Positions 1,564-24,415 of a stretch of DNA of 64,000 nucleotides are shown here, in pieces. The DNA is from Actinomycetota bacterium (lineage in GTDB: Bacteria; Actinomycetota; Geothermincolia; Geothermincolales; RBG-13-55-18). The position numbers were made by a program, and so were the translations under genes. The notes under the pieces are model-generated. The model was not told the DNA's origin. It saw only the letters and a program-made list of their open reading frames with translations, and searched no databases. The stretch's first letter is position 1. Each line of letters opens with the position of its first letter. Location: contig JACIXD010000017.1 in the NCBI GenBank assembly GCA_014360645.1, forward strand, positions 1-64,000, read 5' to 3'.

Positions 1564-4500
1564 ATGAGCATCTTCGACCTGCGGGACGCCGTCATCGACG
1601 AATACAAGGACTACATCAGCAGCTTCCTCCTCATCCAGGACGAGCGCATCCGCGATTTCGTGGAAGAGGAGCTCTTACAAAAGGGGACCCTCTGGCCGCC
1701 CGCCCTCCTGCAGCTCAACCCCTCCTACGAAAAAGCGGCCACCATCGAGCAGCTGGTCGAGGAAGGGAAGCTCCATCCCGATTGCGCCGATATCTTCCGT
1801 GACCGGGACGGGGGCTCCATCACCCTCTTCCGGCACCAGCAGGAGGCCATCGAGACGGCCCTCTCCGGCAAGGGGTTCGTGGTCACCAGCGGCACCGGCT
1901 CCGGAAAGAGCCTCACCTACTTCGTGCCCATCATCGACGCGGTGCTAAGAGGCGACACCTCCGCCCACAAGGTGTGGGCCATCATCGTCTATCCCATGAA
2001 CGCCCTCGTGAACTCCCAGCACACGGCCCTCGAGGAACTGGCCGAAGCCTACAGGGAAAGGACTGGCCGGGATTTCCCCATCCGCTTCCACAAGTACACC
2101 GGGCAGGAGCACGCCAGCCGCCTGGATATCCAGAAGGAGCCCCCCCACATCCTCCTCACCAACTACGTGATGCTCGAGCTCATGATGGTGCGTCCCGAAG
2201 AGCATATGTTCGTGGACCGCACCACCACCGGCATCAAGTACCTGGTCATCGACGAGCTCCACACCTATCGCGGGCGCCAGGGGGCGGACGTGGCGCTGCT
2301 CATCCGCCGTCTGAAGGAAAGGAGCGGCAACCCCGGCCTGGTCTGCATGGGGACCAGCGCCACCATGATCGCCGCAAGGACCGCCACCCCGCAGGAGAGG
2401 CGCCAGGCCGTGGCCGCCTTCGCGGGGCAGATCTTCGGCACGGCCTTCGGGCCGGAGCAGGTCATAGAGGAGACCCTGGAGAGCGTCGCCCCGCTGCGCC
2501 GCGACCTGGCCCTGGAGGAGCTCAAGGCGGCCATCGAGGCCCCCCTGCCCGAAACGCCCGAGGAGTTCCTGCAAAGCCCCCTCGTCTCCTGGGCCGAGGC
2601 CAATTTCGGCCTCGAGGAGGAGAAAGAGGAGGAAGAGGGAAAGCTCCGCCGCAGCGCCCCCATCAGCCTGGAGGAGGGAGCCCGGCGACTGTCCGAGGAA
2701 ACGGACCTGGACGAGGCCACGTGCAGGGAGGCGCTTAACCGCGTCTTTTTGGCCGGGGCGACGCTGCGCAACGACAGAGGCGAGCCCCTGCTCTCCTTCA
2801 AGCTCCACCAGTTCATCGCCCAGGGCAACCGCGTCTTCGCGACCCTCGAGCCCCGCCCTGAGCGCGTCTTCGACCTCGAGGGGCGTGCCTCCACCGACCG
2901 CGGCGGCGGCCCTCTCCCCCTCTTTCCCTTGAAGTTCTGCCGCATCTGCGGGATCGATTACTACGAGGTGCTCAACGACTCCCAGGAGAAGCGCTTCGAG
3001 CCGGTGAGCGACGAGCTCGACTGGGAAGAAGGCTCGCAGGGCCCGGGCTATCTCCTCCTCGCCCCCGAGGGCGCTGAGGTGGAGTGGGGACCCGAGAACC
3101 TGCCCTCGGAATGGCTCACCGACACGGGAAGGGTAAAAAACACATACAAAGACCATGTCCCCCGGCCGGCATGGGTGAGCCCCGACGGCACCTATTCCGA
3201 GACCCCTGCCGAGGGCACGGCGAAGGCCTGGTTCCAGCCGCGTCCCTTCCGCCTCTGCCTCAACTGCGGGGTCTTCTACGGCAGGGGGAGCGAGTTCAGC
3301 AAGCTCACCGGCCTCTCCAGCGAGGGGCGTTCCACCGCCACCACCGTGCTCGCCCTCTCCGCCCTGGAGAACGCCCCCACGGGCGACATCGAGGCTTCGG
3401 CGCGTAAGCTCCTATCCTTCACCGACAACCGCCAGGACGCCAGCCTGCAGGCGGGGCACTTCAACGACTTCGTGCAGGTCTCCCTCTTGCGCGCCGCCAT
3501 CCATGCCGCGGTCGAGGAGGCGGGTAAGCTGCGCTACGACGAGGTCGCGCCCAAGGTGGCGGAGAAGCTCGGCCTGAGCTTCCGAGACATCGCCGCCAAC
3601 AAGGAGATAGAGCCCGACACCGCTCCCGGCAGGGAGGTGCTCCGGGATTTCACCGCGCTCATCGAGTACCGCATCTACGAGGACCTGCGCCGCGGCTGGA
3701 GGGTGGTGCAGCCCAACCTGGAGCAGTGCGGGCTGCTCGTCATCGACTACCTGGGAATGGAGGAGCTCTGCTCGAATGACGAGGCCTGGCGCGAGCTCGA
3801 GCCCTTCGCCCAGGCATCCCCGGAGAAGCGCCGGGAGGTGCTCGTGGCCCTCCTCGACCATTTCCGCCGCCAGCTCGCCGTGCACGCCTCCTGCCTGCAG
3901 GAGACCGACCAGGCACAGCTCAAAAAACGCGTGCGGGAGCGCATCGACGAGCGCTGGGGCTTCGAGGAGGCCGAGAGGCTGCGCCCCGCTGTCCGCTTCA
4001 TCCTCCCCGGACAGGAGGAGAGCCTCAGGAACAGCTTCAGCCTCTCCGAGCGCAGCCTCATCAGGCGTTACCTCAGGCGCGCCCTGCCCGCCTTCGATAC
4101 GGAGTACGCCGACAACGTGCTCCGCCTGGTGGACATCCTCTGCGCCCACGGGCTGCTCCGGAAGGAGAGCGAGAGGGGGGTCTCCTTCGTGCGCCTGGAA
4201 TCATCTGCCATCATCTGGAAAAAGGGAGACGGCAGGCCCGCGGGCGAGCCCATCTACCTGCGCCGCTCCGAGGACCCCGTCTACCAGAGGGCGGAGCGGG
4301 AGGCCAACCGCTATTTCCGGGATTTCTACCTGCGTTCCTCCGCCCTCCTCCGGGAAGCCGAGGCACGCGAGCACACCGCTCAGATAGACTACGAGCGCCG
4401 CGAGGAACGGGAGAGGCGTTTTCGCAACGGCGAGCTCAAATGTCTCTTCTGCTCCCCCACCATGGAGCTGGGCATAGACATCGCCGACCTGCAGCTGGTG

Positions 4501-6779: not shown

Positions 6780-9629
6780 ATGAGCGACGGATTTGCTGGC
6801 GTGGGGTCCATCGTGCGCTGCCGGGAACGCGAGTGGGTGGTCCTGCCATCGCAGCGTGAGGACATAATCATGCTCCGCCCCCTGGCAGGGGGAGAGGAAG
6901 AGATCTGCGGCGTCTCTACCCAACTGATGAAGTACGGCATCGACACCATCACTTCCGCTGACTTTCCCCTTCCCAGGCCCGAGGAAGCGGGCGACGCCAC
7001 CTCGGCAGGGCTCCTCTTCGACGCCGCCCGCCTCACATTAAGAGACGGAGCCGGCCCCTTCCGCTCCCTGGGGCGCATCTCGGTGAGGCCCCGCCCCTAC
7101 CAGTTCGTGCCCATGCTCATGGCCCTGCGCCTCGACCCCATCCGCCTGCTCATCTCAGACGACGTGGGGGTGGGAAAGACCATCGAGGCGGCGCTCATCG
7201 CCCGCGAGCTCCTGGACCGGGGTGAGATCAAACGTATCTGCGTGCTCTGCCCGCCCTACCTCTGCGACCAGTGGGCGAACAAGGAACTCAAGGAGAAGTT
7301 TCACCTCGATGCGGTGATCATCAACTCGGGCACGGTGAGCTCGCTCGAGCGCCGCCTGCCCCCCGGCGACCACAGCATCTTCAGCTACTTTCCCTATACA
7401 GTGGTGAGCATCGACTACGCCAAGAGCGAACGCCACCGCCAGAACTTCCTCGCCAACTGCGCGGAGCTGGTCATCGTGGACGAGGCCCACGGGGCCGCGC
7501 GCCCCTCCAGCCGTTCCGCCACCCAGCAGCAGCGCCATGCGCTCCTGCGCGAGCTGGCCAAGGATGAGGACCGCCACCTCATCCTCCTCACCGCTACCCC
7601 CCACAGCGGGGTGGAGGAGGGGTTCCTCTCCCTTTTGGGCCTGCTAGAACCAGACTTTGAGCGGCTCAACCTGCAGAACCTTACGGAAAAGGAGCGTGAC
7701 CGCCTGGCGCGACACTTCGTGCAGCGCCGCCGCGCCGATGTGGTGGACTGGCTGGGGGAGAAGACCCCCTTCCCCGAACGCAATACAAGCGAGGCCAGCT
7801 ACGACCTCTCGCCCCCCTACCGCAAGCTCTTCGACGGCGTGTACGAGTTCAGCCGCGAGCTGGTAGCCTCGGGGGAGACCTTGAGCGGCTGGAAGAGGCG
7901 GGTGCGCTACTGGACCGCCCTGGCGCTTCTGCGTTGCGTCATGTCCAGCCCCGCCGCCGCCTCCACAGCCATCGGCAAGCGCTTAAAGGGTCTGGGCGAG
8001 GAGATGGAGGAAGGCGTCCTCGAAGACGATTTCCTCCCCTCCATCTACGAGACGGAGGACCGGGAAGCGACCGACCTCCAGCCCTCCCAGGTCATCGAGG
8101 AGGGGGCGGAGGAGCTCACGGATCCCGAGGCAAGGAGGCTTCGCGCCTTCGCCAGGCAGGCCGAGTCCTTGAAGGGCGGCGACGACCGCAAGCTGGAGAA
8201 GTGCGCAGAGATCGTGGAAGGCCTCCTCGACCAGGGGTTTTCCCCCATCATCTGGTGCCGCTACATCGCCACCTCCGACTACGTGGCCGCGGAGCTGTCC
8301 CGCCGCCTCGCCCGCCGCTATCCCGAGCTGCGCGTGGTCTCGGTCACCGGGGCCCTCTCCGAGGACGAGCGCAAGCTCAAGGTGGAAGAGCTTGCCAGCT
8401 TCCCCCGGCGGGTACTGGTGGCTACCGACTGCCTGAGCGAGGGCATCAACCTGCAGGACCACTACAACGCGGTCATCCATTACGACCTCCCCTGGAACCC
8501 CAACCGCCTGGAGCAGCGGGAGGGGAGGGTGGACCGCTTCGGCCAGACGGCCTCGGTGGTAAAAGCCGTCCTCCTCTACGGCCGGGACAACCCGGTGGAC
8601 GGGGCGGTTCTCGAGGTGCTCCTGCGCAAGGCCAGGTATATTCATAGATCTCTTGGGATATCGGTGCCCGTGCCCGTGGACAGCGAGACGGTGATGGAGG
8701 CGGTGCTTGAGTCCCTCTTCTTCCGCGGCAGGGACGCCTCGCAGATGCAGCTCTTCGATGCGCCCGAGGCTCGGGAGCTGGAGCGCCTCTGGGACCGCGC
8801 GGCGGAGCGCGAGAAGGAGAGCCGCACCCGGTTTGCCCAGCGGGCTTTAAAGCCCGACGAGGTGGAGCGCGAGCTTAAGGAGTGCGACTCCGTGCTGGGT
8901 GACCCCGGCGCGGTGCGGGACTTCGTGCTCGAGGCCTGCAACCGCCTGGGGGTGGGATGCCGGCGAAAGGGCGAAGGCACCTACGAGCTCTCCTCCCTCG
9001 ACCGCCTCCCCGCCCGCGCGCGCGAGGCCCTGCCGCAGGAGGAGAGGCTCCTCCTCGCCTTCGAGGCCCCCGCCCCGGAGGGCGCGCTCTACGTGGGGCG
9101 CAACCATCCCTTCGTCACCGCCCTGGCGCGGCACCTCATGGAGGAGGCCCTGGCCGGGAAGCCGGACGCCGTGGCCTCGCGCTGCGGGGTCATGCGCACA
9201 AGCCGGGTCGGCAAGCGCACCACCCTCATGCTCGTGCGCTGCCGCTACACCCTGACCACCCCGGACGCAGGAGACCTGCTGGCGGAGGAGGTGCTCCCCC
9301 TGGCGTTTGTCGGCACCCCCCAGGACGGGGTCACCTGGCTTCCCCGCGAGGAGGCCGTGGCCCTTCTGCGCGAGGCGGCGCCGGAGGAGAACGTCGCCCC
9401 CCAGGCCCGGGCGGAGGCCTTGGAGAGGGCGCTTTCCTGGTACAAGGACCTAAAAGGCGAGATTACGGGGATATTGGAGGAGCGCGCCCGCGCCCTGCAG
9501 GCCTCGCACAAGCGGGTGCGCGAGACGGCCAGGGTAGCCCGCCGGGGCGTGGCCGTCACCCGCCACCTCCCGCCCGACCTCTTGGGACTCATGGTGCTCT
9601 TGCCCGTCCCCAAGGGGGTGAGGAGGTGA
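6780..9629 (+). CDS. SNF2-family helicase, DrmD-like
   Basis: A 949-residue superfamily 2 translocase. The N-terminal ~100 residues precede the motor and are not recognised. Walker A DDVGVGKT lies near residue 127, DEAH in VIVDEAHG near 232, motif III LLTATPH near 270, and the second RecA domain shows ATDCLSEGINLQ near 547 and QREGRVDRFGQ near 577. Such SNF2/RapA-like proteins (DrmD) accompany an adenine methylase in class 1 DISARM. A GGAGG ribosome binding site sits 7 bases before the ATG. The 3' end overlaps the methylase start as GTGA, indicating translational coupling. The C-terminal third shows no enzymatic motif that I recognise. Role in defence is inferred from context. Confidence 0.85.
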   Translation: MSDGFAGVGSIVRCREREWVVLPSQREDIIMLRPLAGGEEEICGVSTQLMKYGIDTITSADFPLPRPEEAGDATSAGLLFDAARLTLRDGAGPFRSLGRISVRPRPYQFVPMLMALRLDPIRLLISDDVGVGKTIEAALIARELLDRGEIKRICVLCPPYLCDQWANKELKEKFHLDAVIINSGTVSSLERRLPPGDHSIFSYFPYTVVSIDYAKSERHRQNFLANCAELVIVDEAHGAARPSSRSATQQQRHALLRELAKDEDRHLILLTATPHSGVEEGFLSLLGLLEPDFERLNLQNLTEKERDRLARHFVQRRRADVVDWLGEKTPFPERNTSEASYDLSPPYRKLFDGVYEFSRELVASGETLSGWKRRVRYWTALALLRCVMSSPAAASTAIGKRLKGLGEEMEEGVLEDDFLPSIYETEDREATDLQPSQVIEEGAEELTDPEARRLRAFARQAESLKGGDDRKLEKCAEIVEGLLDQGFSPIIWCRYIATSDYVAAELSRRLARRYPELRVVSVTGALSEDERKLKVEELASFPRRVLVATDCLSEGINLQDHYNAVIHYDLPWNPNRLEQREGRVDRFGQTASVVKAVLLYGRDNPVDGAVLEVLLRKARYIHRSLGISVPVPVDSETVMEAVLESLFFRGRDASQMQLFDAPEARELERLWDRAAEREKESRTRFAQRALKPDEVERELKECDSVLGDPGAVRDFVLEACNRLGVGCRRKGEGTYELSSLDRLPARAREALPQEERLLLAFEAPAPEGALYVGRNHPFVTALARHLMEEALAGKPDAVASRCGVMRTSRVGKRTTLMLVRCRYTLTTPDAGDLLAEEVLPLAFVGTPQDGVTWLPREEAVALLREAAPEENVAPQARAEALERALSWYKDLKGEITGILEERARALQASHKRVRETARVARRGVAVTRHLPPDLLGLMVLLPVPKGVRR

Positions 9630-12600
9630 GCCGCTTTCCCAGCCTCAAGGTGGAGGGAGGACTCCTTTCCTTCGACCTCATCGAGGACATCGCGGAAGGC
9701 GAAGCCCCGGGGCAGAAGCCGGCGGACTTCGGCCTTCCCGCCAAGGCGCACTTCCTGGACGAGGTGGCCGATGCCTGGGCAGCAGCCCGCCGCTACTGGG
9801 AGGCCTTCCGCGCCCGCCTGGAGCAGCTGCCGGAGGAGGACCTCGCCACCAGCGCCACCCGCGACGGCTGGGTCATCCCCCTCCTGAGCCTCTTGGGATA
9901 TGAGCTCGCCTACCGGCCGCGGGCCCAGGTGGTGGACGGCCTCACCTTCGCCGTAAGCCACGGCGCGGACTCAGGTGAGGACTCTCCCCCCGTGCACGTG
10001 GTGGGCTGGCGCCAGGAGCTGGGCAAGCTCCCGCCCACCGGCCGCCCCCGCCTCGCCCCGCATGTGCTCATGCAGGAGTACCTCAACCGCACCGAACACC
10101 TCTGGGGGCTGGTCACCAACGGGCGCGTCCTGCGCCTGCTGCGCGACTCCCAGCTGCTCTCCCGCCAGGCCTACATCGAGTTCGACCTCGAGGGCATGTT
10201 CGAGGGGGCGAGGCTTGCCGACTTCGCCCTCCTCTGGCGCCTGGCCCACCGCACCCGCCTGCCTCGAGGCATGGAGGACGCCCCCTCCTGCCTGCTGGAG
10301 CGCTACTACGCCACCAGCGTGGAGCAGGGAGGGAGGGTGCGTGAGAGGCTGCGCGACGGGGTGGAGCGAGCCCTGGAGGTCTTCGGGAACGGCCTGCTCT
10401 CCCATCCCGAGAACGGTGAGCTGCGGGAGAGGGTGGCGGCGGGAGAGATCAGGCCCGAGGACTTCTACCGCGACCTTTTGCGCCTGGTCTACCGCCTGCT
10501 CTTCCTCATGGTGGCGGAGGAGAGGGGCCTCATCTCCCCCTCCGAGGTCTACCTGGAGCACTACAGCCTGGAGCGCCTGCGCCGACTGGCCGACCTGCGC
10601 ATCTCGGGGGAGGACCACCGCGACCTCTGGATATCCCTGCAGGCCACCTTCGAGCTCTTCCGCAGGGAGGAGCTGGGGGCCCTGCTCCAGCTCCCGCCCT
10701 TGAACGGCGAGCTCTTCGCAGCGACTGGTCTCGACCGCTGCGCCCTCTCCAACCGGGACCTCTCCGCCGCCCTGCGCGAGCTCTCCACCTACACCGAGGG
10801 CCCGCGCTGCCCGCGCCGTCGCGTCAACTACTCCGCCCTGGACGTGGAAGAGCTGGGGAGCGTCTACGAGAGCCTCCTCGACTACCATCCCGCCTTCCTG
10901 GAAAAAGACGGGAAGACGGCCTTCCGCCTGGTCACAGGTACGGAGCGCAAGACCACCGGCTCCTACTACACCCCGCCGGCGCTCGTGGGCGAGCTCGCGA
11001 AAAGCGCGCTTGAGCCGGTGCTCCTCGCCCGCTTGGATAAGGCGAAGGGCAAAGAGGACAAGGAGAGGGCCATCCTCTCCATGAAGGTGTGCGACCCCGC
11101 CTGCGGGAGCGGCCATTTCCTGCTCGCCGCCGCCCGCCGCCTGGGCAAAGAGCTCGCCCGCGTGCGCACGGGCGACGAGGAGCCCGCCCCCGAGGAGGTG
11201 CGCCCGGCGGTGCGAGAGGTCATCTCCCACTGCATCTACGGGGTGGACAAGAACCCCTTAGCGGTGGACCTCTGCAAGGTGGCGCTGTGGATAGAGGGCC
11301 ATGCCGAGGGCAGGCCCCTCTCCTTCCTCGACCACCGCATCCGCTGCGGCGACTCCCTGGTGGGGGTGTTCGACCTGAAGGTACTGGAGGAGGGCATACC
11401 CGACGAGGCCTTCAACCCTGTCTCCGGAGACGACAAGGCCCTCGCCAAATCGAAAAAGAAGGACAACAGGGCGGAGAAGACCAAGAAGGCGGGATGGCTC
11501 TCTATGCAATTCGAGGCGGGTTCGGACATCGCGGAGCTCTCACAGGCCTACCGCGCACTCTCCGAGATACCCGACGACACCCCGGAACAGGTGCGAAGGA
11601 AACAGGAGGCCTACGAGAGGCTTAAGGCGGAGGGGAGCAGGTGGTGGCGGGACATGACCGCCTGCCACCTCTGGACCTCCGCTTTCTTTGCGAACCTGGA
11701 TACGGATAGCTGCCGGGAGAGGGCCGTCCCCACCACCCAGGTCCTGCGCGACTACCTGGCCTCGGGGAGCGTGGACGGGCGCTTTATCGGGCACGCCTGG
11801 GAGGCGGCGGTGCGCCACCGCTTCTTCCACTGGCCCCTGGAGTTCCCCGAGGTGTTCGAGGCGAGAGGCTTCGACGTGGTGCTCTGCAATCCTCCCTGGG
11901 AGCGCATCAAGCTACAGGAGCAGGAGTTCTTCGCCACCCGGGAGCCCGAGATCGCCTTGGCTCCCAACAAGGCGGCACGAGGACGCCTGATCAAGCAACT
12001 TCCCGAGACCAATCCATCCTTGTGGTCTGAATACCTGGATGCTCTGCATTATGCCGAGGCACAGAGCAAGTTCCTGCGCCAATCCGGGCGCTTCCCCTTA
12101 TCCGCCCGGGGAGATATAAACACATATTCTGTCTTCTCCGAGCTTTTCAGCGAATTGATAAATGCCAGCGGCAGAGTGGGGATCGTCGTGCCCACGGGCA
12201 TCGCCACCGACGACACCAACAAGCAGGTCTTCTCCCACCTGGTGGATGGGGGGATGCTCGTAAGCCTATATGACTTCGAGAACCGGGAGAAAATATTTCC
12301 CGCGGTTGATAGCAGGCAGAAGTTCTCTCTCCTCACCCTTCGTGGTGACCTCGCCGCGAAAGCTCCCACCCGCTTCGCCTTCTTCCTCACCCGCACAGAG
12401 CAGCTCAAGGACGAGCGGCGCGTCTTCTCCTTAAGCGCGGAGGACTTCAAGCTCCTGAACCCCAACACCCGCACCTGCCCCATCTTCCGCACCCGCCAGG
12501 ACGCCGAGCTCACCAAGTATATATATGAGAGGGTGCCGGTGCTGGTGAACGAGGCCACGGGCGAGAATCCCTGGGGCGTTAGGTTCATGACCATGTTCCA

Positions 12601-13714: not shown

Positions 13715-13919
13715 GTCTTAAAGAGTGTGTGTTTGGAAAGGATGATCGGTCATGGTCTTTTTCAAAAATACCAGGAGCTGTCAACGACGGTTTAGATTGT
13801 CACCGTTTCAACGGTATAAAGTGTCCACTTTTCGACGGAGTCACTCGGCTGCAACCGGCAGATAGATGATTGTATAAACTACCGGGGATGAACCGGCCAA
13901 CGGTGGTGTTCGGTTCCTT

Positions 13920-14228
13920 TCACCTCCCCTCCGTTTTCACAAGCCCTATGCTATGGACCCGGCCTTCCTCTTGCCTCAGAAAGCTCCTCAGTGGCGAGTA
14001 ATTGTAGCTGGTGATGGGGAGGGCGGGGTTGTCTACGAGCTCTTTTTCCTCGAGAAGGGCATGGGCGATCCCCTTCTCCCACAGCGCGGGGATCCTTGCC
14101 TAAGATGACCTGCGGTACTCCACGCTGAAGCCCTCCGGGTCATCCCTGTACTCCCGGAGCAGGGAGAAGAACCTCGCCTTGCCTATTCCCAGGATCTGCT
14201 GGGATATCTTAGTGTCCAGCTTTAAAGC
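13920..14228 (-). pseudogene. Transposase N-terminal remnant (HTH, integrase-type)
   Basis: Read on the minus strand, this stretch encodes LDTKISQQILGIGKARFF, then LREYRDDPEGFSVEYRRSS, a TAG stop, and in the same frame ARIPALWEKGIAHALL, EEKELVDNPALPITSYNYS and a final stop. The pattern, a helix-turn-helix followed by a long acidic-basic helical stretch and SSYNYS-like text, is that of the N-terminal half of DDE-type transposases of integrase-core elements. The catalytic half is absent. It lies between the methylase and the first McrB gene. It suggests that the two defence blocks were joined or disrupted by an insertion element. The exact IS family is not determined. Confidence 0.55.
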
Positions 14229-14420
14229 TTAAACTTTCTACTTTGAAATTTAGATCACATGCTCCACGTCGATGTTGACGTCAAGCAGTCTTATAATATT
14301 TAAACAAGGCCTAGCACTTTAGAATTCAGATAAATGGAGCGCCCATGAATGAGGTGGTATATCATTTCAATGTTATCTTGGCCACAAATCTTTATCTCTC
14401 CTATTTGTTTGGAGACCACG

Positions 14421-16025
14421 ATGGAAATACATATGGATGCTACTGAAAAATCACAGAGGGCTTGGATATTCCAGTCGAACCCCAAGAGATATCCAATACT
14501 TGAAGCCATAACAACGAAGAAAAAGGACACATTTTCAATCAACCGATATAGGGACGAATATTCAATTGGTGATCGGGTATTCATATGGAAGTCGGGGGAG
14601 AATGCAGGCATATATGCTGTTGGAAGAATACTATCTAAGCCGTTTGAGATGAAAGGTACAGAGTTTGGCGATATCAAAGTAGAGATTAGCTACGACGAGG
14701 TTTTGGATAACCCCATCCTAAAGGAAGAAATTCTTAAGGATGAAAGATTAAAAGGCTTGGCAATAATTCGACAACCTCGGGGAACAAATTTCAAGCTGGA
14801 GCAAGAGGAGGCAAAGATTCTTGAGGAAATCTACGGGGCGAGAAGCAAACTCGAAGGCACTTTAAGCTCGAACATATCAGAACAAGAGCATCATAAGATC
14901 TACAATTATATCCAAGGCAAAGGCCTCCACTTCCCCCCCTCCCTGGTGACCGACTACCTCCTGGCGCTCAAGACCAAGCCCTTCGTCATCCTCACCGGGG
15001 TGTCCGGCACCGGCAAGACCAAGCTGGCCCAGCTGGTGGCGGATTACTTCACGGAAGAGGACAAGGAACGCGTGGCCTTCGTGCCGGTGAGGCCGGACTG
15101 GACGGACAACCAAGGGCTCCTAGGCTTCTACAACCTCATCACCCAGCGCTACGAGCCCACCGAGCTCTTGAAGCTCCTGCTGCGCGCCGCAGAGGACCTC
15201 GAGAACCCCTACTTCCTCATCTTGGACGAGATGAACCTGGCCAAGGTGGAGCACTACTTCTCCGACTTCCTCTCCTGCCTGGAGAGCGGGACCCCCATCC
15301 TCCTCCACGACCAGCCGGAGGACCTGTCCTTCTCGGACGGGAAGCGGGAATACCTCATCCCTCCCCGCCTCCAGATACCCGAAAACCTCTACATAACCGG
15401 CACCGTCAACGTGGACGAGACCACCTACATGTTCTCCCCCAAGGTGCTGGACCGGGCCTTCACCCTGGAGTTCGACCGCGTGGAGACCGGGGCCTACCTG
15501 GGCTTGGAGGAGGCCTCATCCGAGGAGGACTTCCGGCTCAAGGAGGGGTTCACCCTCCTGCCCCAGGAGCATGCCACCAGGGCGCACGCCTCCTCCCTCT
15601 CCCCCGGCTTCAAGGGCCTCCTCGCCTCCCTGGAGGAGATGCTCGAGCCCTACCGCCTGCACTTCGGCTACCGGGTGATCAACGAGATCTCCCTCTACCT
15701 TGCAAACGCCGGGGAAAACGTGTCGGAGAGCCCCACCGCCGCAGATACCGCCTTCGACCTCTGCCTCCTGCACAAGGTCCTGCCCAAGCTGCACGGCAAC
15801 CGCGGTGAGCTGGAGGAGCCCCTGGCCCGCCTCCTCTTCTTCTGCTTCGAGATGACCCCTCCGGGTGACCCCGCCGGCTCCTTCGAGAGCTTCCAGGCCG
15901 GACCCCCTCTTCTCTACGAGTCCCAGGATGAAGGGAGGTCTCCCCGCTTCCCCCGCACCGCCGCCAAGGTCCATCGCATGTGGTCCACCCTGCGCACGCG
16001 GGGCTTTGTGAGCTTCGTGGAGTGA
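14421..16025 (+). CDS. EVE-domain McrB-like GTPase/AAA+ protein
   Basis: This 534-residue protein joins an EVE (PUA-like) domain to a McrB-type AAA+ motor. The EVE part is seen in AWIFQSNPKRYPILEAI, GDRVFIWKSGENAGIYAVGRI and a following SY..., residues ~10-150. The motor has Walker A GVSGTGKTKLAQ near residue 193, Walker B LILDEMNLAKVEHYF, and GTVNVDETTYMFSPKVLDRAF. EVE domains bind modified bases, so a type IV restriction role against modified DNA is likely. The start at 14421 is chosen over 14349 because GGAG lies 6 bases upstream and the protein then begins just before the EVE fold. The EVE part is visibly AT-richer than the motor. The motor is nearly identical in DNA to that of the next gene. 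A TATAAT at 14292-14297 lacks a well-spaced -35. Confidence 0.88.
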   Translation: MEIHMDATEKSQRAWIFQSNPKRYPILEAITTKKKDTFSINRYRDEYSIGDRVFIWKSGENAGIYAVGRILSKPFEMKGTEFGDIKVEISYDEVLDNPILKEEILKDERLKGLAIIRQPRGTNFKLEQEEAKILEEIYGARSKLEGTLSSNISEQEHHKIYNYIQGKGLHFPPSLVTDYLLALKTKPFVILTGVSGTGKTKLAQLVADYFTEEDKERVAFVPVRPDWTDNQGLLGFYNLITQRYEPTELLKLLLRAAEDLENPYFLILDEMNLAKVEHYFSDFLSCLESGTPILLHDQPEDLSFSDGKREYLIPPRLQIPENLYITGTVNVDETTYMFSPKVLDRAFTLEFDRVETGAYLGLEEASSEEDFRLKEGFTLLPQEHATRAHASSLSPGFKGLLASLEEMLEPYRLHFGYRVINEISLYLANAGENVSESPTAADTAFDLCLLHKVLPKLHGNRGELEEPLARLLFFCFEMTPPGDPAGSFESFQAGPPLLYESQDEGRSPRFPRTAAKVHRMWSTLRTRGFVSFVE

Positions 16026-16034
16026 GGGATGAAA
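14924..16034 (+). repeat. 1,111-bp direct repeat, copy 1 (McrB motor module)
   Basis: This copy matches 17328-18438 at a constant offset of 2,404 bases. The only difference noticed is T at 16007 against C at 18411, a silent change. The repeat covers the whole AAA+ module of the EVE-McrB gene from the LHFPPSLVTDYL segment through the stop codon and the next nine bases. It ends sharply where the following gene begins. Confidence 0.95.
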
Positions 16035-16035
16035 G

Positions 16036-18429
16036 ATGTTTGAGAACAGCTCGGCACTCGACAGGGCCGCAAGGCTTTTCGGTATGGCTTACGATGCGGC
16101 ACTTCAGGGTGCCTACAGCAACTACAAGAGGCAAGCGCTGGCAAACATAGGAAAAATTATCAAGGAATACATTAAGAGCGGAGATGTCAGCCGCGGAGTA
16201 TTGCCGAGGATTTTAAAGGAAAACACACAGAATATTATATGGATTGTCGGGTATTTCGGCGTAATAGACGACTTGCGCTCGTATCTTTCAAAGAGCGAGG
16301 CCAACGAGAAGGCTTTCCTGAGTGAATTTGCTCGCATGCTGGAGGAAAACACTCCTTTGGAAAAGAGGGTTGACGATTTCAAGTCCTTTATGGACGGAGA
16401 ATATGCAAGGAATGGGATAGAAAGGAAATTCCCGCTCAACATGCTCTCCACATTCCTTGCCGCTAATGATGAGAGACAATATTGCATCGTAAGACCTACC
16501 TCATACGACCGAGCCATAAAGGAATTCGGGTATAAGGACAAACTCGCCGCCTGGAAAACAGATGGGGAGAGATACGCATATTACTGCGATTTCGCCCTGG
16601 AGTTGCTGGAGAAGCTCAGGGAGGCATCCGGGAAGGGCCTGAGCCTTCTGGATGTCTATAACTTCCTCTTCTTGTGGGACCATTTCCACCCCGCTTTCGA
16701 CCGGGTTCTGATAGCCGCGAACATCGAGAGGCTGAAGGCAAAGGGTGAGTGGAACGGGAAGAGGTTCGACTATCGTGCCGAGAAGGAGGCGGAAGCAAGA
16801 AAGCTGTGCGAGGACAAGGTCGGTAGCTTCTCTCGGGAGGAGGGGGAGAGGCTCTTCGCCCTGCTTGACTCAGATCTTCCTGGGGGAAGGGAAGTCCACG
16901 GACGCTTCGGCCTGTCCTTCATCGGCTCTAACCGGGAGCTTCTGCTCCAAGACATGGGAGCCTTTAACCAGTGGTCTGATTACCTATATGGCGCGCCCGA
17001 GGCGGAGCTACAACAACGCGTCGAAGGGTTTATGAAAATGAAGCCGTTGAAGGGCGCCGGCAGCACGTTCGTCTCCGCGCTCCTCTACCTTCGGGATAAG
17101 AACCGTTTCAACATCGTGAACGGTGCGATAATCGGCGGTTTGGCGAAGGTTCTCGAGAACAAGGCCTTGGACAAGAGAAAACTGGAATACTACTTCGATG
17201 CCAACTGGTTGCTCATCTGCCTCAGAGAGGAAATCGGTCTCCGCCCTGAATCCCTCGACCTGCTCCTCTCAAACATCGTGCCCGTAACCCCGGCCCGCGA
17301 CATCTACGAGTATGTCGAACGGGCCAACCTCCACTTCCCCCCCTCCCTGGTGACCGACTACCTCCTGGCGCTCAAGACCAAGCCCTTCGTCATCCTCACC
17401 GGGGTGTCCGGCACCGGCAAGACCAAGCTGGCCCAGCTGGTGGCGGATTACTTCACGGAAGAGGACAAGGAACGCGTGGCCTTCGTGCCGGTGAGGCCGG
17501 ACTGGACGGACAACCAAGGGCTCCTAGGCTTCTACAACCTCATCACCCAGCGCTACGAGCCCACCGAGCTCTTGAAGCTCCTGCTGCGCGCCGCAGAGGA
17601 CCTCGAGAACCCCTACTTCCTCATCTTGGACGAGATGAACCTGGCCAAGGTGGAGCACTACTTCTCCGACTTCCTCTCCTGCCTGGAGAGCGGGACCCCC
17701 ATCCTCCTCCACGACCAGCCGGAGGACCTGTCCTTCTCGGACGGGAAGCGGGAATACCTCATCCCTCCCCGCCTCCAGATACCCGAAAACCTCTACATAA
17801 CCGGCACCGTCAACGTGGACGAGACCACCTACATGTTCTCCCCCAAGGTGCTGGACCGGGCCTTCACCCTGGAGTTCGACCGCGTGGAGACCGGGGCCTA
17901 CCTGGGCTTGGAGGAGGCCTCATCCGAGGAGGACTTCCGGCTCAAGGAGGGGTTCACCCTCCTGCCCCAGGAGCATGCCACCAGGGCGCACGCCTCCTCC
18001 CTCTCCCCCGGCTTCAAGGGCCTCCTCGCCTCCCTGGAGGAGATGCTCGAGCCCTACCGCCTGCACTTCGGCTACCGGGTGATCAACGAGATCTCCCTCT
18101 ACCTTGCAAACGCCGGGGAAAACGTGTCGGAGAGCCCCACCGCCGCAGATACCGCCTTCGACCTCTGCCTCCTGCACAAGGTCCTGCCCAAGCTGCACGG
18201 CAACCGCGGTGAGCTGGAGGAGCCCCTGGCCCGCCTCCTCTTCTTCTGCTTCGAGATGACCCCTCCGGGTGACCCCGCCGGCTCCTTCGAGAGCTTCCAG
18301 GCCGGACCCCCTCTTCTCTACGAGTCCCAGGATGAAGGGAGGTCTCCCCGCTTCCCCCGCACCGCCGCCAAGGTCCATCGCATGTGGTCCACCCTGCGCA
18401 CGCGGGGCTTCGTGAGCTTCGTGGAGTGA
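16036..18429 (+). CDS. McrB-like AAA+ protein with unknown N-terminal domain
   Basis: A 797-residue protein whose last ~365 residues repeat the AAA+ motor of the previous gene exactly, with Walker A near residue 457. The first ~430 residues are different: largely helical, with segments such as FLWDHFHPAFDRVLIAANIER and KPLKGAGSTFVSALLYLRDKNRFNI. The second recalls helical scaffold domains, but I do not recognise the family. In McrB proteins the N-terminal domain reads the DNA target, so this is probably an alternative specificity or adaptor subunit. It starts 10 bases after the previous stop, with GGGATGAAAG as a weak ribosome binding site. The downstream nuclease gene starts 3 bases after its stop, so all three are likely one transcript. 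Confidence 0.85.
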   Translation: MFENSSALDRAARLFGMAYDAALQGAYSNYKRQALANIGKIIKEYIKSGDVSRGVLPRILKENTQNIIWIVGYFGVIDDLRSYLSKSEANEKAFLSEFARMLEENTPLEKRVDDFKSFMDGEYARNGIERKFPLNMLSTFLAANDERQYCIVRPTSYDRAIKEFGYKDKLAAWKTDGERYAYYCDFALELLEKLREASGKGLSLLDVYNFLFLWDHFHPAFDRVLIAANIERLKAKGEWNGKRFDYRAEKEAEARKLCEDKVGSFSREEGERLFALLDSDLPGGREVHGRFGLSFIGSNRELLLQDMGAFNQWSDYLYGAPEAELQQRVEGFMKMKPLKGAGSTFVSALLYLRDKNRFNIVNGAIIGGLAKVLENKALDKRKLEYYFDANWLLICLREEIGLRPESLDLLLSNIVPVTPARDIYEYVERANLHFPPSLVTDYLLALKTKPFVILTGVSGTGKTKLAQLVADYFTEEDKERVAFVPVRPDWTDNQGLLGFYNLITQRYEPTELLKLLLRAAEDLENPYFLILDEMNLAKVEHYFSDFLSCLESGTPILLHDQPEDLSFSDGKREYLIPPRLQIPENLYITGTVNVDETTYMFSPKVLDRAFTLEFDRVETGAYLGLEEASSEEDFRLKEGFTLLPQEHATRAHASSLSPGFKGLLASLEEMLEPYRLHFGYRVINEISLYLANAGENVSESPTAADTAFDLCLLHKVLPKLHGNRGELEEPLARLLFFCFEMTPPGDPAGSFESFQAGPPLLYESQDEGRSPRFPRTAAKVHRMWSTLRTRGFVSFVE

Positions 18430-18438
18430 GGGATGAAA
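17328..18438 (+). repeat. 1,111-bp direct repeat, copy 2 (McrB motor module)
   Basis: Second copy of the module at 14924-16034, including the stop codon and nine following bases. The near identity at the DNA level, including silent positions, indicates a recent duplication or ongoing gene conversion rather than selection on protein sequence alone. Confidence 0.95.
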
Positions 18439-20049
18439 ATAACGAAGAAGGGCAGCGGCCAGGAACTGGATCTTCATGAACACTCTGCCCTGGGGCCCTG
18501 TTTTCTGCTGACCGAGAACTGCCCTTACCTAGCGGAGACAAAAGAAGGCGAGCTCAGCCATCCGGCGGCCACCCCCTTGAGGCCAGGCCTTTATGAGCTG
18601 GTTTTCAAGAACTTCGTGGGATGGGCAAAGCTGGGAGACACGCTTCTTAAGATCAGGACCCCGAAGCTCTCCGACGACGGGTTTGACGCCATGGTCAACC
18701 AGATAACCGAGGTATGCGCCTCACTCCCGTTCGCCTTCAACACGCCGTCTTTCCTCCCCTTCGAGCGCATTTCCCCGGGTGGGGAAGAGGTGCTCTACCA
18801 TGCCTTCATGTATCTGCGATATATGATCAAGGATTCCGAGCCTTCCCTGGAGGCGGTGCTGAACCGCATCATCGCAAACCCCCACCGGGTCATCGTCCGG
18901 GAGGCAGTAAGGCAGGAGCTGCACCGAGCGAGGCGCGTGAGGCCTGCTTCCATAAACCGCTTGGCCAGTTGCCCGCGCGACCTGATAAACACACGGCAAG
19001 CGCCACACCTTTCCGATTGCGAGATATCTCGAAGGTTGGAGGACATCTCGGGAGAGAGATATTTCCCCACATATATCCAAGGCATCAAGAAGGACGCGAG
19101 CATCGACAACCCCGAGAACCGCTTCGTCAAGCATTTCCTGGAACAATGCCTCCTCATCGCCGAGCTCTTCCGCCGCTGTTTCCGGGACAAGGCTCAAGAG
19201 GGCGGATATTTCGATCACGGGTTGTTGGAGGATGCCCATCTTATGGTCAATAACCTTAAAGGGCTTCTGACCAGAGGCTTTTTCGCCGATGTAGGCGAGA
19301 TGGCGTACCTGCCATATAACTCCCAGGTGCTGCAGAAAGGGCCGGGTTACCGCGAGCTCTTCTCCTTCTTCAACCGCATGAACATGGGAAGCGCTTATCC
19401 TATCGGCAGCGCGGACCTCAGAAAGATCATCGAGAACAAGGACGTGGCGCTGCTCTACGAGTACTGGACCTATTTCAAGTGTGTGGACGTTCTGAGCGAG
19501 GTGGTCGGCAAGCCCAAGAGAGCCATTGTAAAAGGCGGAAGGGAGAAGGAGAAGGAGAAGACACTCCCCTATGACCTGGGCGTAGATTTCGGAGGAGGGA
19601 TCAGCCTCTTCTATAACAAGACCTATCACGGCAACCGAAGGGGGTCATATTCGTTAGCGTACCGACCGGACATAGCTCTTGAGATGCCCGACGGCATCTA
19701 CATCTTCGACGCCAAGTTCAAGAAGGAAAGGGTTATCTTCGAGCAGTTCGAGGGCGAAGAGGTGGCTGAGACAAAGGAGGAGGAGTTCGACCAGGGGTTC
19801 AAGTATGGCGATATCAACAAGATGCACTGCTACCGTGACGCCATCCAAGGGGTCAAGGCCGCTTTCATCTTGTACCCAGGCGACCTCTTCCGGTTCTTCC
19901 ATGTCGATAAAGGGAAGATGACCGCACCCCAGCAGGCGGATGATCTCAACGGCGTAGGGGCGATCCCACTGAGACCATCCATGAAAGGCTCAGACACAAA
20001 GGATTTGAAGTCTGTGCTTGAGCTGTGTTGCCTGGGGGACAAGCGATGA
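18433..20049 (+). CDS. McrC-like DUF2357 nuclease subunit
   Basis: This 538-residue protein is the likely nuclease partner of the two preceding McrB proteins. A PD-(D/E)XK active site is visible around residues 410-430: YRPDIALEMPDGIYIFDAKFK, with the second Asp, Ala and Lys forming the D-x-K element. Upstream lies the DUF2357-type segment ENRFVKHFLEQCL near residue 225 and LLYEYWTYFKCVDVL near 340, both usual for McrC homologues. It begins 3 bases after the McrB stop, indicating translational coupling. In the McrBC family the GTP-driven motor moves on DNA and activates the McrC nuclease. Function here is inferred from that family. Confidence 0.85.
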   Translation: MKITKKGSGQELDLHEHSALGPCFLLTENCPYLAETKEGELSHPAATPLRPGLYELVFKNFVGWAKLGDTLLKIRTPKLSDDGFDAMVNQITEVCASLPFAFNTPSFLPFERISPGGEEVLYHAFMYLRYMIKDSEPSLEAVLNRIIANPHRVIVREAVRQELHRARRVRPASINRLASCPRDLINTRQAPHLSDCEISRRLEDISGERYFPTYIQGIKKDASIDNPENRFVKHFLEQCLLIAELFRRCFRDKAQEGGYFDHGLLEDAHLMVNNLKGLLTRGFFADVGEMAYLPYNSQVLQKGPGYRELFSFFNRMNMGSAYPIGSADLRKIIENKDVALLYEYWTYFKCVDVLSEVVGKPKRAIVKGGREKEKEKTLPYDLGVDFGGGISLFYNKTYHGNRRGSYSLAYRPDIALEMPDGIYIFDAKFKKERVIFEQFEGEEVAETKEEEFDQGFKYGDINKMHCYRDAIQGVKAAFILYPGDLFRFFHVDKGKMTAPQQADDLNGVGAIPLRPSMKGSDTKDLKSVLELCCLGDKR

Positions 20050-20071
20050 TAAAGGAAATGGAGGTAAGGAG

Positions 20072-21883
20072 ATGAGCATCAGGGAGCACATCGGGTGGAT
20101 TCTTGAGAATTATTTGGAAGCAAGGCAATCGGCGAGCTTTTCTTCCAGCCATCCTGTGTATCGAAGGTTCATGGACCTTGGGGAAAGCCTATCCAAACTG
20201 GCGGCGGTAAAAATGAGGCACACCCTAAAGGTGAAATGGAGCGTGGGGCAAGGCAATTGGGCACGCATACCATGGATCGCTTTTCTGGATGAGAGGGAAA
20301 CAAGGACAACTCAAAGCGGTGTGTACCCAGTTTTCCTATTCCAAGAGGACATGAAGGGAGTATATTTTACCTTCAACCAAGGGGTAACCGAGTTAAAAAA
20401 TGATCACGGGACAATCGAGGCCAGAAGAATCCTCAGGGAACGCGCTAAAACACTCCAGCAGTATTGCGTGGATGCTGAAAAACGAGGCTTTCGCCTGGAT
20501 ACCAGGATATCCCTGCATGCCGGGTATGGTCTGGGAAAAGAATACGAATATTCCACCGTTGCATATAAGCTCTATGAAAAGGGCAAGATCCCGGCTGATG
20601 AAGAGATCATAGTGGATGTCGAATATCTACTGGGTGCATACGATAGGTATCTTGAATCAAGGAAGGCTACCAGTATTTCAAAATCTTCGATCACCGAGGA
20701 GATAGAACCTGTGGGGGCTGAATTCAACATACAGCAGGCCACAGAGGACTTAATTAGAAATATCCATGCTAAGGGCTTCATATTTGAGCCATGGCAGATC
20801 GCGCAATACGTCACCGCCTTGCGAACCAAGCCCTTCATTATCCTTGCCGGAATTACAGGGACAGGGAAATCGAAGCTCCCTAGGCTTGTCGCAGAGGCCA
20901 CAGCTGGGGAGTGCTTGCTCATTCCTGTAAAGCCGGACTGGTCGGATAGCTCGGATGTGCTTGGCTATACGGATCTCCAGGGTGATTTTCGACCGGGACC
21001 CTTGCTCGAGATCGCGCGTGATGCAATGGAGAACCCGGACCGTTATTGGACCTGCATTATCGATGAGATGAACTTGGCACGGGTTGAGCAGTATTTCGCC
21101 GAGGTACTGAGTAGGATTGAAGATCGAAGGCGAGATCCAAATGGAGGATACGCAAGCATTCAACTACTTAGCAAGGCGCTCAAGGAAGATGAGGCCGAGT
21201 GGGGGGAGGTGGTCATACCGTCCAATCTTGCCATAGTGGGGACGGTGAATATGGATGAAAGCGCGCATGGATTTAGCCGCAAAGTATTGGATCGTGCTTT
21301 CACCGTTGAGTTATCAGAAATCTTTCTCGATCAGTGGGAGAATGCATCGACCACGGAAAAGACCAAGGCAGTTACTTGGCCTGTTAAAGCCATGTGTCCG
21401 AGGGCGATCATGCTGGCTGCGCTGACAAACCCGGAAGATAGGGAAAGGTCAGAGATAGTTCGCGCCGTAAACGCCTTGATGGAGATAAACAGAGTCCTCG
21501 CGCCGGCGCAGCTACAGGTTGGCTATAGGACTAGAGATGAGGTAGCGCTTTTCCTGCTTCATAGCTTGGAGATCATCGATTCCTTCAGGGATATGCGGGG
21601 AAACAAGATAGACCCACTCGATCTTGCACTGCAGATGAAGATATTGCCCAGGATTATCGGTGGTAGCGATGCGGTAAACAGGGTTGTCATGGGCATGCTG
21701 GGATGGGCATACGGTGGAGTGCCATTCAAGTTGGAGGATGAAGCACGCCAGATAGTCAAAGACTGGGACGATAGTGGGAGACCATCGGCGATCGGTGGCA
21801 GTCGTTACCCAAGGTTGGCTGCGAGATTATGCCTGATGTGGGAGCGCTTGAAATCGGAGGGATATACCTCTTATTGGTTGTGA
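20072..21883 (+). CDS. MrcB (DUF3578)-domain McrB-like GTPase
   Basis: A 603-residue protein with an MrcB/DUF3578 N-terminal domain, recognised by KVKWSVGQGNWARIPWIAFLD and the following VYPVFLFQEDMKGVYFTFNQG, residues ~40-190. The McrB-type AAA+ motor follows: Walker A GITGTGKSKLPRL near 260, Walker B IIDEMNLARVEQYFAEVL near 330, and GTVNMDESAHGFSRKVLDRAF near 390. The ATG at 20072 is preceded by GGAGGTAAGGAG, so the in-frame upstream start at 20018 is unlikely. The motor is only distantly similar to the duplicated motors upstream, so this is an independent second module. The gene and its partner are AT-richer than the helicase genes, suggesting separate acquisition. Confidence 0.88.
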   Translation: MSIREHIGWILENYLEARQSASFSSSHPVYRRFMDLGESLSKLAAVKMRHTLKVKWSVGQGNWARIPWIAFLDERETRTTQSGVYPVFLFQEDMKGVYFTFNQGVTELKNDHGTIEARRILRERAKTLQQYCVDAEKRGFRLDTRISLHAGYGLGKEYEYSTVAYKLYEKGKIPADEEIIVDVEYLLGAYDRYLESRKATSISKSSITEEIEPVGAEFNIQQATEDLIRNIHAKGFIFEPWQIAQYVTALRTKPFIILAGITGTGKSKLPRLVAEATAGECLLIPVKPDWSDSSDVLGYTDLQGDFRPGPLLEIARDAMENPDRYWTCIIDEMNLARVEQYFAEVLSRIEDRRRDPNGGYASIQLLSKALKEDEAEWGEVVIPSNLAIVGTVNMDESAHGFSRKVLDRAFTVELSEIFLDQWENASTTEKTKAVTWPVKAMCPRAIMLAALTNPEDRERSEIVRAVNALMEINRVLAPAQLQVGYRTRDEVALFLLHSLEIIDSFRDMRGNKIDPLDLALQMKILPRIIGGSDAVNRVVMGMLGWAYGGVPFKLEDEARQIVKDWDDSGRPSAIGGSRYPRLAARLCLMWERLKSEGYTSYWL

Positions 21884-21889
21884 TCCGTT

Positions 21890-24415
21890 ATGGAAGAGCT
21901 TTTCCGAATAGAGACGGACAAGGTTTCTTTGGTCTGGAGTGGCCCGACCGCGCCATTAGAGATATCCACGCTTTCAGCAGGCTTCACCCCGGGCAGGTTA
22001 TCAGTAGTTTCCTTGAGAGAAGGAATGGAAATTTGCATACAAAAGCCAACCATACAAATACCGCCTCAGGTTGCAGACTCGGTGGATTGCCATATCGGCC
22101 CTCATCTTTTCGAAGAGACCACGTATCAATTATTGCTGAAGAGCAAGAACGGTGAGGAGATAGAGCTGCAACATCGCGACCTTTTAGTCCTGGGAAAACT
22201 AAGCAGGGAAGATCAGGGAAGGATTGTTTACGGTTATGTTAATTTTGGTGGGCAAATAGGAAGAAGCCGATTCAAGGTCACAGTATCAGGAACACCAGAG
22301 TTCGACTTCGAGGTAGAAGTTTTTCCCAGCAAGCTTGATTATACTTCGGATTACGAAGCGCTCCTTGCGGATCTTCAAGGCATCATTACCGCGCTGGTGT
22401 TGTCATACCTGCAATCAACATATAAGATGGGTAAGACCGAGCGAGAAAAGATGCCTACCAAGCTGGAATGGGTCTTATTGCTGCGCCATATATTATCCGA
22501 CCTCGAACGTGGCCTGCGCTATATCGAGCGGCATCCCGAGCGAGAACTAGCGAGGATGCGTGTTCCGACCAGGGTCGAGCGCCTGAGAAAATATGATTCG
22601 TCAGTGCTACAGTGCGTTTTACAAGGAAAAGGCGAGGGACGAGTTGTTCGCATGCGTAACGGTATTCCACTGCGGTATAGAATTCCAGAGAGTCGCGCCA
22701 TGCATACTCTGGATACACAAGAACACCGCTGGTTGGCAGCGCAGCTATCACAGATCAGAAGACGCCTGGCGCAGATATATGAAGAGGAGAGGGAAAGGCA
22801 GAGGATGCAAGGAGATACCGAGGTTCCTGCCCGGAAAGCACAGATACTAGACGAGCTCAAAGTGCTAAAGGATCATATAAGCCGCCTCGAGGAAATTGAG
22901 CCCATTGCGGCCGCTGCTGGACAACCAGCCCCGGGATTTGCCTCCCTAAGGCTGCAGCAAGCCCCGGGATATCGCGAAGCCTACCATGCCTGCATCATGC
23001 TGCGTCGTGGCTTAAGGGTCGATGAAGTCAATCCCCCTCTTTCCTTGAAGCAGCTACACATCCTTTATGAATATTGGTGTTTTTTGTCTATTGTAAATAT
23101 GGTTTCTGAGGTGCTGGGCGTTAAAATTCCTGTGGAGCGCTTATTAACGGTGCAGCAGAGTGGAGTGCGAATACAGCTGCAAAAGGGACGTACGAAAAGC
23201 GTTGTCTTCCCCATGGACGAAGGATTGGCTGTAGAGGTTGCATATAACCCGATCTATTCTGGGGACAGTTATGCCCTTCCGCAAGAGCCCGATATCGTAA
23301 TTACTCTTCATAATCCCGATTGGCCCAAGGTGAGCTTGATCCTGGATGCCAAGTATCGCATCGATAGTTCGGATAAATACCTGAAGAGATTTGGAGTAGC
23401 AGGGCCGCCACAGGATGCGATAAACGTATTGCATCGCTACCGTGATGCGATCCTTGAGGAGACAGGTGGCGATAGGACGCGATGTGATAGATACAAAAGA
23501 AACGTAGTAGAAGGCGTTGTCCTCTATCCGTATGCCGAAAAGGAAAAGGAGTTTGCAAACAGCAGACTATGGCAATCCCTCAAGAGACTCGGTATAGGCG
23601 CGTTGCCTTTTCTCCCAAGCGAGAAGAAATACGTTGAGGAGTGGCTCAGAAGCGTTTTGCGACAGGCGGGATGGTCAATAGCGGAGCGAGCAATTCCCCA
23701 TGTTGCGCATGAGAAGATGCGTACTTGGCGGGAAGCTTCCAAGGAAGTTGTATTGGTGGGAACGCTAAGGCGCGACGCAAAGGCACATCTGGATTGGATT
23801 ATAGAAAAACGTCGCTATTACACCCCGCTTACAAGCACGCAAAGGCTTCAATTCGCAGTACGCTGGCTCGCGATATATTCGCCTGCCTCGCTGCGTAAAC
23901 CCGGCGCCGTTTCCCATTTTGCCCAAGTGGAGAGAATCGATGTTTTAAAGCGCAAGGACATCGTGACGCCTTGGCCTGCTGAAAGGGAAGGAGACGAACT
24001 TCAGGTAGTCTATTATCTTGAGGAAGTAAGGGAGCTTAATCCAAGCATCGAGAACAGGGGGGCCAATGGGCGCGGAATCCGTTTCTCGCGCAATCGCTGG
24101 ACATCGCTACTTGCATTGCAACGCGCTGAGGAACTTCGCGAGCTTTTCCTAGAAACTGAACCTGAATGGCGACTCTATGACGGCCTGAGGGCAGCAGGGA
24201 TAAACTTTTCTATATATCCTGGTCAGCCATTACAGAAAAAGGAAGAGGAGCCTAAGGGAAGAGCAAGTTTCTTGGTTGGCGAACTCACGATTCAATATAG
24301 GGGAAGCGCCGGATTTAGCATCAAGCACCCCACCTATGAAGATAATAAGTCAAGTGCGGAACATGTGCTTGAATATATAGAAAAGCGTTGCGGACAGTTA
24401 TTTGCATCAGACTGA
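21890..24415 (+). CDS. Large DUF2357 nuclease, McrC-like
   Basis: This 841-residue protein is the likely nuclease partner of the preceding MrcB-McrB. A DUF2357-type central part contains RLQQAPGYREAYHACIMLRRGL and LHILYEYWCFLSIVNMVSEVLG. The catalytic core reads PDIVITLHN...LILDAKYRID near residues 465-490, a PD-(D/E)XK element. The last ~220 residues form an extra domain with YYTPLTSTQRLQFAVRWLAIY and GIRFSRNRWTSLLAL, which looks like a PUA/EVE-type fold but was not identified with certainty. It is longer than typical McrC. It starts 6 bases after the preceding stop. The N-terminal ~150 residues look beta-rich and are not recognised. Confidence 0.82.
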   Translation: MEELFRIETDKVSLVWSGPTAPLEISTLSAGFTPGRLSVVSLREGMEICIQKPTIQIPPQVADSVDCHIGPHLFEETTYQLLLKSKNGEEIELQHRDLLVLGKLSREDQGRIVYGYVNFGGQIGRSRFKVTVSGTPEFDFEVEVFPSKLDYTSDYEALLADLQGIITALVLSYLQSTYKMGKTEREKMPTKLEWVLLLRHILSDLERGLRYIERHPERELARMRVPTRVERLRKYDSSVLQCVLQGKGEGRVVRMRNGIPLRYRIPESRAMHTLDTQEHRWLAAQLSQIRRRLAQIYEEERERQRMQGDTEVPARKAQILDELKVLKDHISRLEEIEPIAAAAGQPAPGFASLRLQQAPGYREAYHACIMLRRGLRVDEVNPPLSLKQLHILYEYWCFLSIVNMVSEVLGVKIPVERLLTVQQSGVRIQLQKGRTKSVVFPMDEGLAVEVAYNPIYSGDSYALPQEPDIVITLHNPDWPKVSLILDAKYRIDSSDKYLKRFGVAGPPQDAINVLHRYRDAILEETGGDRTRCDRYKRNVVEGVVLYPYAEKEKEFANSRLWQSLKRLGIGALPFLPSEKKYVEEWLRSVLRQAGWSIAERAIPHVAHEKMRTWREASKEVVLVGTLRRDAKAHLDWIIEKRRYYTPLTSTQRLQFAVRWLAIYSPASLRKPGAVSHFAQVERIDVLKRKDIVTPWPAEREGDELQVVYYLEEVRELNPSIENRGANGRGIRFSRNRWTSLLALQRAEELRELFLETEPEWRLYDGLRAAGINFSIYPGQPLQKKEEEPKGRASFLVGELTIQYRGSAGFSIKHPTYEDNKSSAEHVLEYIEKRCGQLFASD

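Follow-up and report, generated by a model that had tools for sequence, protein, structure and literature searches.

The stretch of DNA analyzed here (the window; 64,000 nucleotides of contig JACIXD010000017.1, from an Actinomycetota assembly of 3.38 Mb in 34 contigs) carries what is likely a defense island of two parts, probably transcribed separately: an ARMADA type I system and a five-gene type IV restriction operon whose first McrBC has two detectors. Eight intact genes, all on the + strand, span 1564–24415, as delimited by ORFs and Pfam matches. The island is the published pairing of ARMADA type I with McrBC in another lineage, and the pairing itself is already known; the unusual part is a doubled McrB motor with exchanged sensors. 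This doubled motor gives one tangible example of a way in which type IV restriction might switch specificity with the engine and nuclease kept, and it offers a ready test of detector mixing in McrB rings.

The mcr genes are ordered EVE-McrB, X-McrB, McrC, MrcB_N-McrB, and McrC, all on the + strand, and with spacings of 10, 3, 22, and 6 nt between them they look like a single, putative operon. EVE-McrB (mcrB1; ~14421–16025; EVE and AAA by Pfam) consists of a sensor at ~14421–14923 and a motor at 14924–16025, as judged by Pfam and GC3; its start codon is uncertain, and the ORF opens at 14349. X-McrB (mcrB2; 16036–18429; AAA) has the same motor behind an N-terminal half with no recognizable relative. 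For both, the sole McrC is McrC1 (18433–20049; DUF2357 and PDDEXK_7). There follow mcrB3 (~20072–21883; MrcB_N, or DUF3578, and AAA_5), whose start is likewise uncertain, with a TTG at 20018 possible, and a large McrC2 (21890–24415; DUF2357 and PDDEXK_7), which has extra N- and C-terminal regions. The features that define McrBC type IV restriction are present throughout, namely AAA+ Walker A/B motifs with an Nx(x)D motif in the three McrBs and DUF2357-PD-(D/E)xK in the two McrCs. The signature motifs of the McrBs (GTVNVDET, GTVNVDET, and GTVNMDES) are all NxD, and the NxxD signature of the McrB branch associated with DISARM and ARMADA (the green group of Bell et al. 2024) is found in none of the three. 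McrC1, used as a query against genome contigs, retrieved no relatives.

The last 1,102 bp of mcrB1 (14924–16025) and of mcrB2 (17328–18429), the two + strand copies of the motor repeat, differ at one base, a synonymous change. The repeat starts exactly at the sensor–motor junction and its identity runs 9 bp beyond the stop codon into GGGATGAAA; in copy 2, mcrC starts there. The sensors ahead of these motors are unrelated, one being an EVE domain and the other the 430-aa X region, and their GC3 values (0.44 for EVE and 0.67 for X) stand apart from that of the motor (0.92); the sensor–motor gap in EVE-McrB is the largest among 68 McrB genes (mean 0.09, sd 0.11). Searches of the X sensor against Pfam, PDB, plasmids, and IMG/VR gave no credible relative, and a single-sequence AlphaFold model of it (pLDDT 42) was uninformative. 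Motors this nearly identical are what one would expect if the motor had recently been duplicated along with the arrival of a new sensor, or if gene conversion acts on the two copies.

Two motors in one locus appear to be rare. In a sample comprising the NxD sub-branch nearest to the window motor together with one phylum, not one of 80 other McrB loci carries a second motor, and among 297 genomes of the phylum more than one motor match is seen in the window's genome only. Two plasmids with two McrB places, Synechocystis pSYSX and Caballeronia pSBC2-5, were considered as further cases of tandem mcrB and rejected, as the stretch viewed in each holds a single mcrB with a single mcrC. The two near-identical motors group with just one relative of the same family (G013) in a tree of 84 McrB motors. 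The same tree does not place the ARMADA-linked McrBs in one group, though it is compatible with a single origin, and the long branches of mcrB3 and Chlorohelix are unreliably placed. G013 carries a third, unrelated sensor (GC3 0.67) on a motor (GC3 0.90) that is 73% identical to that of the window, and the mcrC behind this motor is of the same type as in the window. A scar of ~40 bp from the 3' end of another mcrB lies immediately upstream of the G013 mcrB; at 39 of 40 positions it agrees with the mcrB of G013 itself, and at 31 of 40 with that of the window. Short as it is, the scar hints at repeated or concerted events. The near-identical motors, the unrelated sensors, the third sensor and scar in G013, and the absence of a second motor from all 80 loci together point to an exchange of sensors onto one motor that would serve one McrC.

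The first part of the island (1564–13714) is, judged by gene content, order, and strand, an ARMADA type I system. In the published description of that type (Bell et al. 2025, bioRxiv, PMC12458937), a YprA homologue to which a Vsr-type nuclease is fused comes first, then a BrxHII-like helicase, and last a PglX-like methylase. Its YprA-like helicase (1564–6645, + strand) has DEAD, Helicase_C, and MZB/DUF1998 domains within one chain of 1693 aa (Pfam) and a Vsr/DUF559-like nuclease motif at the C-terminus. The best PADLOC match of this protein is DruE (DruE1), at 313 bits, with DrmA at just 46 bits; the ARMADA helicase has been reported as closest to Druantia (PMC12458937). Next on the same strand is a RapA/DrmD/BrxHII-like SNF2 helicase of 949 aa (6780–9629; SNF2/Helicase_C), with matches to DrmD, BrxH, RapA, and PDLC02853 among the Pfam, PADLOC, and NCBI models. 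Against the NCBI DrmD model it scores 342 bits, under the curated cut-off of 610, so that by the NCBI standard it is not DrmD. PADLOC PDLC02853, which is labeled DpdE, matches this helicase over its full length with 697 bits, and the NCBI DpdE model gives 200; the label may take in ARMADA proteins. The third gene (9626–13714, + strand), whose GTG start at 9626 overlaps the SNF2 stop, encodes a PglX/DrmMI-like Eco57I-type methylase of 1362 aa (Eco57I/N6_Mtase) that matches the Eco57I, DrmMI, and PglX models of Pfam, PADLOC, and NCBI. The gene order is thus YprA, helicase, methylase, and the GajB-RelE fusion that characterizes type II is absent. By inspection, catalytic motifs are intact across the island: Walker A/B in the helicases and in all three McrBs, NPPW in the methylase, and PD...DAK in both McrCs.

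The original prediction had described the helicase as one large protein with its own nuclease domain. The single chain stands; the nuclease is putative and rests on a conserved motif and weak profile matches, not on a fold. The motif (E...PDF...DG..HD) is conserved in homologues from Thermus, cyanobacteria, Deinococcus, Nocardioides, and others, in a comparison that left out relatives L004–L007, and the matches of the C-terminus to DUF559 and MTES_1575 are both weak. A single-sequence AlphaFold model of this region had a pLDDT of 53, and a fold search with it was uninformative. The same motif seems degenerate in Chlorohelix (L140, 24642–25061) and in Acidithiobacillus caldus (L147).

Between the methylase stop at 13714 and the first mcr gene at ~14421 lie ~700 bp (13715–14420) of decayed intergenic DNA, fragments of which recur elsewhere in the source genome at 87%–94% identity. 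Composition also changes here: GC3 is 0.81–0.89 in the core, 0.73–0.79 in the first McrBC, and 0.50–0.56 in the second, with 0.82–0.91 in the remaining genes of the window. From the decayed gap, the drop in GC3, and the tight spacing of the mcr genes we conclude that ARMADA and the mcr operon are two distinct units that have come to lie side by side, between which functional cooperation is possible. A scan covering one promoter type detected no promoter between the core and the mcr genes, and read-through transcription from one into the other is therefore possible. On its left flank the island is bordered by an IS4-type transposase gene (DDE_Tnp_1_4 by Pfam; 166–1212, – strand), and diverged copies of this IS4-like element are present elsewhere in the genome. 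On the right the island extends further, with a NERD and UvrD-type helicase at 26870–28567 and then an SMC-like ATPase at 28910–31060, for which the closest models are LmuB (Lamassu).

Bell et al. 2024 (eLife, PMC11090510) report that branches of McrBC are prevalently associated with a DISARM-like system, and it was a DISARM-like cassette beside McrBC that led to ARMADA (PMC12458937). The original prediction had proposed a search of complete genomes for the same gene order; the pairing of core and McrBC was found, independently of these papers, in several other genomes. On a Chlorohelix plasmid, genes for YprA, SNF2, methylase, EVE-McrB, and DUF2357 succeed one another on the same strand with small genes between them. 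Plasmid MP1 of D. radiodurans R1 (L143, 18001–36627) has, by annotation, ARMADA-like genes with a split methylase and then McrB and McrC on the same strand, and in Nocardioides pNOCA01 ARMADA and McrBC overlap as one five-gene operon, with DISARM upstream. The core is also followed by McrBC, again on one strand, in Nannocystis (L084) and in a Thermoleophilia MAG (L073). The McrB motif beside ARMADA is NxxD in Nocardioides and NxD in Chlorohelix, the Thermoleophilia MAG, Nannocystis, and the window. A complete McrBC module is absent beside ARMADA in five of eight plasmid lineages. In 12 relatives of the source genome the three-gene core is kept as a unit (helicase 43%–86% identical), and none of these 12 homologues has a complete McrBC module in its readable flanks, with several contigs ending close by; one relative (L032) has a short McrC-like fragment only. 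Given its absence from these plasmid lineages and flanks, the ARMADA–McrBC pairing is known and recurrent, but loose and not obligatory.

The surveyed loci also showed variation within ARMADA itself. Plasmids of Thermus (L141) and Chroococcidiopsis (L142) have the order SNF2, methylase, YprA, with YprA not first. In relative G006 (L025, 2517–6575; copies L157 and L158) two further copies of the final ~155 bp of the methylase gene lie downstream at 83%–87% identity, and a different small gene precedes each of them, a pattern that would fit repeated insertion of genes at the 3' end of the methylase. Contigs of three other relatives (L023 of G010, L028 of G009, and L031 of G008) end within ~15 bp of the same methylase codon (~877), the 3' part being missing from the assemblies; the methylase 3' ends in these three are possibly variable recognition regions.

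From the gene content, order, repeat, composition, and recurrence observed here, we infer functions, operon status, and mixed hexamers as follows. In the first part (1564–13714) the methylase would mark host DNA, and the YprA-like helicase-nuclease and the RapA-like helicase would destroy unmarked phage DNA without killing the cell. This role is extended from ARMADA type II, since direct, non-abortive defense is known just for that type in E. coli (PMC12458937). The second part (14421–24415) would be a type IV operon against modified DNA, with three McrB GTPases and two McrC nucleases: the N-terminal domains of the McrBs would bind modified bases, the AAA+ ring would drive McrC, and McrC would cut. 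McrB hexamers are known to translocate, with one McrC engaging the ring (PMC7680126). The predicted logics of the two parts are opposite, in that ARMADA would cut what lacks its own mark and McrBC what bears a foreign one, which argues for complementary layers gathered by mobile DNA and not for one machine. Within the first McrBC, EVE and X detector proteins with near-identical motors would share one McrC. The detectors were most likely swapped onto a single motor already in place, through recombination at the sensor–motor junction, and the motor would have been either duplicated recently or held identical by gene conversion. With the same motor and one McrC, both McrBs may dock on McrC1 alternately as separate hexamers or together in mixed ones, and a wider range of modifications would then be detected.

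Several other readings of the island deserve to be weighed. The original prediction called the core DISARM/Druantia-like, and that it is an unusual variant of DISARM class 1 or of Druantia we regard as very improbable. It does resemble DISARM class 1 in its DrmD-like helicase and DrmMI-like methylase, and it resembles Druantia in having a big single-chain YprA-family helicase with a putative terminal nuclease, for which DruE is the nearest PADLOC model. However, one fused protein takes the place of the split DrmA and DrmB, and no separate gene for DrmA, DrmB, or DrmC was found in the window among ORFs, Pfam, and PADLOC matches; the DrmD score is well short of its cut-off; the Druantia partners DruA-D (type I) and DruH (type III) are absent, a methylase and a RapA-like helicase being present instead; and the description of ARMADA type I is matched throughout in gene content and order. 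The prediction was therefore right that the core is neither standard DISARM nor Druantia and that a PLD-type DrmC is absent, and the series it listed (helicase-DUF1998, SNF2, Eco57I-type methylase, EVE-McrB, McrB, DUF2357, MrcB-McrB, and large DUF2357 on one strand) is present and intact; its label gives way to that of a system already named and described. It had passed over that published name, the decayed gap of ~700 bp, and the near-identity of two McrB motors. A different proposal is that ARMADA type I and McrBC form one functional composite, in which the self mark would be set by the methylase and McrBC would act as a built-in effector or back-up, either relying on ARMADA components or adjusted so as to spare the ARMADA mark. 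The pairing has been published as prevalent, recurs on the same strand in Actinomycetota, Deinococcota, Chloroflexota, and Myxococcota, and in Nocardioides takes the form of an overlapping operon. Against this, ARMADA occurs without a complete McrBC in the plasmid lineages and readable flanks counted above, the McrBs associated with it stem from different branches (NxD and NxxD), the window has a decayed gap and a change in composition, and the published ARMADA type II works without McrBC (PMC12458937). We consider the composite improbable, and two co-located complementary layers likelier than one hybrid machine. The composite island first proposed thus holds to the extent that the core recurs with McrBC elsewhere, and as a single system is unsupported in the source genome, given its gap, its composition, and the readable flanks of its relatives, where no complete McrBC module is seen.

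The doubled motor itself might be an assembly artefact (a misjoin across the 1.1-kb repeat) or a short-lived tandem duplication that plays no role. Direct repeats of 1,102 bp are hard for short reads and recombinationally unstable, the doubled motor was seen in no other sampled locus, and the near identity of the motors may reflect nothing more than a passing copy that serves no function. A misjoin or transient duplication has nevertheless to be set against the limits of the repeat, which fall exactly at the sensor–motor junction and past the stop, against two fusions that are both open in frame and tightly spaced, and against G013, which independently has a third sensor on this type of motor and a scar of mcrB upstream. 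On balance we think artefact or transience unlikely, though it remains the most serious of the alternatives. Going further than the sensor exchange preferred here, we suggest, quite tentatively and with slightly less confidence than we would give even to an artefact or transient duplication, that recombination holds the motors of EVE-McrB and X-McrB identical, that subunits of both kinds are built into the same rings to drive a single McrC, and that detectors are gained and lost by cassette exchange at the sensor–motor junction, with mcrB2 open to loss through the direct repeats.

Set beside known systems, the core shares with ARMADA type I (PMC12458937), which is known from Actinomycetota, the single YprA-like chain with DUF1998 and a putative fused C-terminal PD-(D/E)xK nuclease, the BrxHII/RapA-like helicase, and the PglX-like methylase in equal order and strand, and it differs in nothing essential; what the window adds is two McrBC modules beyond the decayed gap. 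Like the McrBC with a DISARM-like cassette reported earlier (PMC11090510, Fig. 2, green), it has McrB and McrC adjoining YprA/DUF1998, SWI2/SNF2, and PglX genes, but the green group is NxxD, whereas the window has NxD McrBs, two McrCs, and the doubled motor. CoCoNuT systems are also NxD, with long coiled coils and CnuC/D; the McrBs of the window carry EVE, MrcB_N, and X sensors, and no CoCoNuT partner was found among Pfam and PADLOC matches. Type IV restriction by EVE-McrB and DUF3578 (ADAM)-McrB (PMC7641849; E. coli McrBC) has the same fusion of a modified-base sensor to an AAA+ GTPase acting with a DUF2357-PD-(D/E)xK McrC; the window differs in placing two sensors, one of no recognizable family, on near-identical motors ahead of one McrC. 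We found no earlier report of this tandem single-McrC form in the part of the literature covered. The principle of sensor exchange is not new: Fukuda et al. (2008, PMC2614495) already described mcrB paralogues within one genome whose N-termini diverge, and those paralogues resemble the window pair in their conserved motor and exchanged N-terminal recognition region. They belong, however, to separate mcrBC homologues of one genome, whereas the window pair are neighbors in a putative operon, with motors identical at the DNA level save for one base and with a single mcrC.
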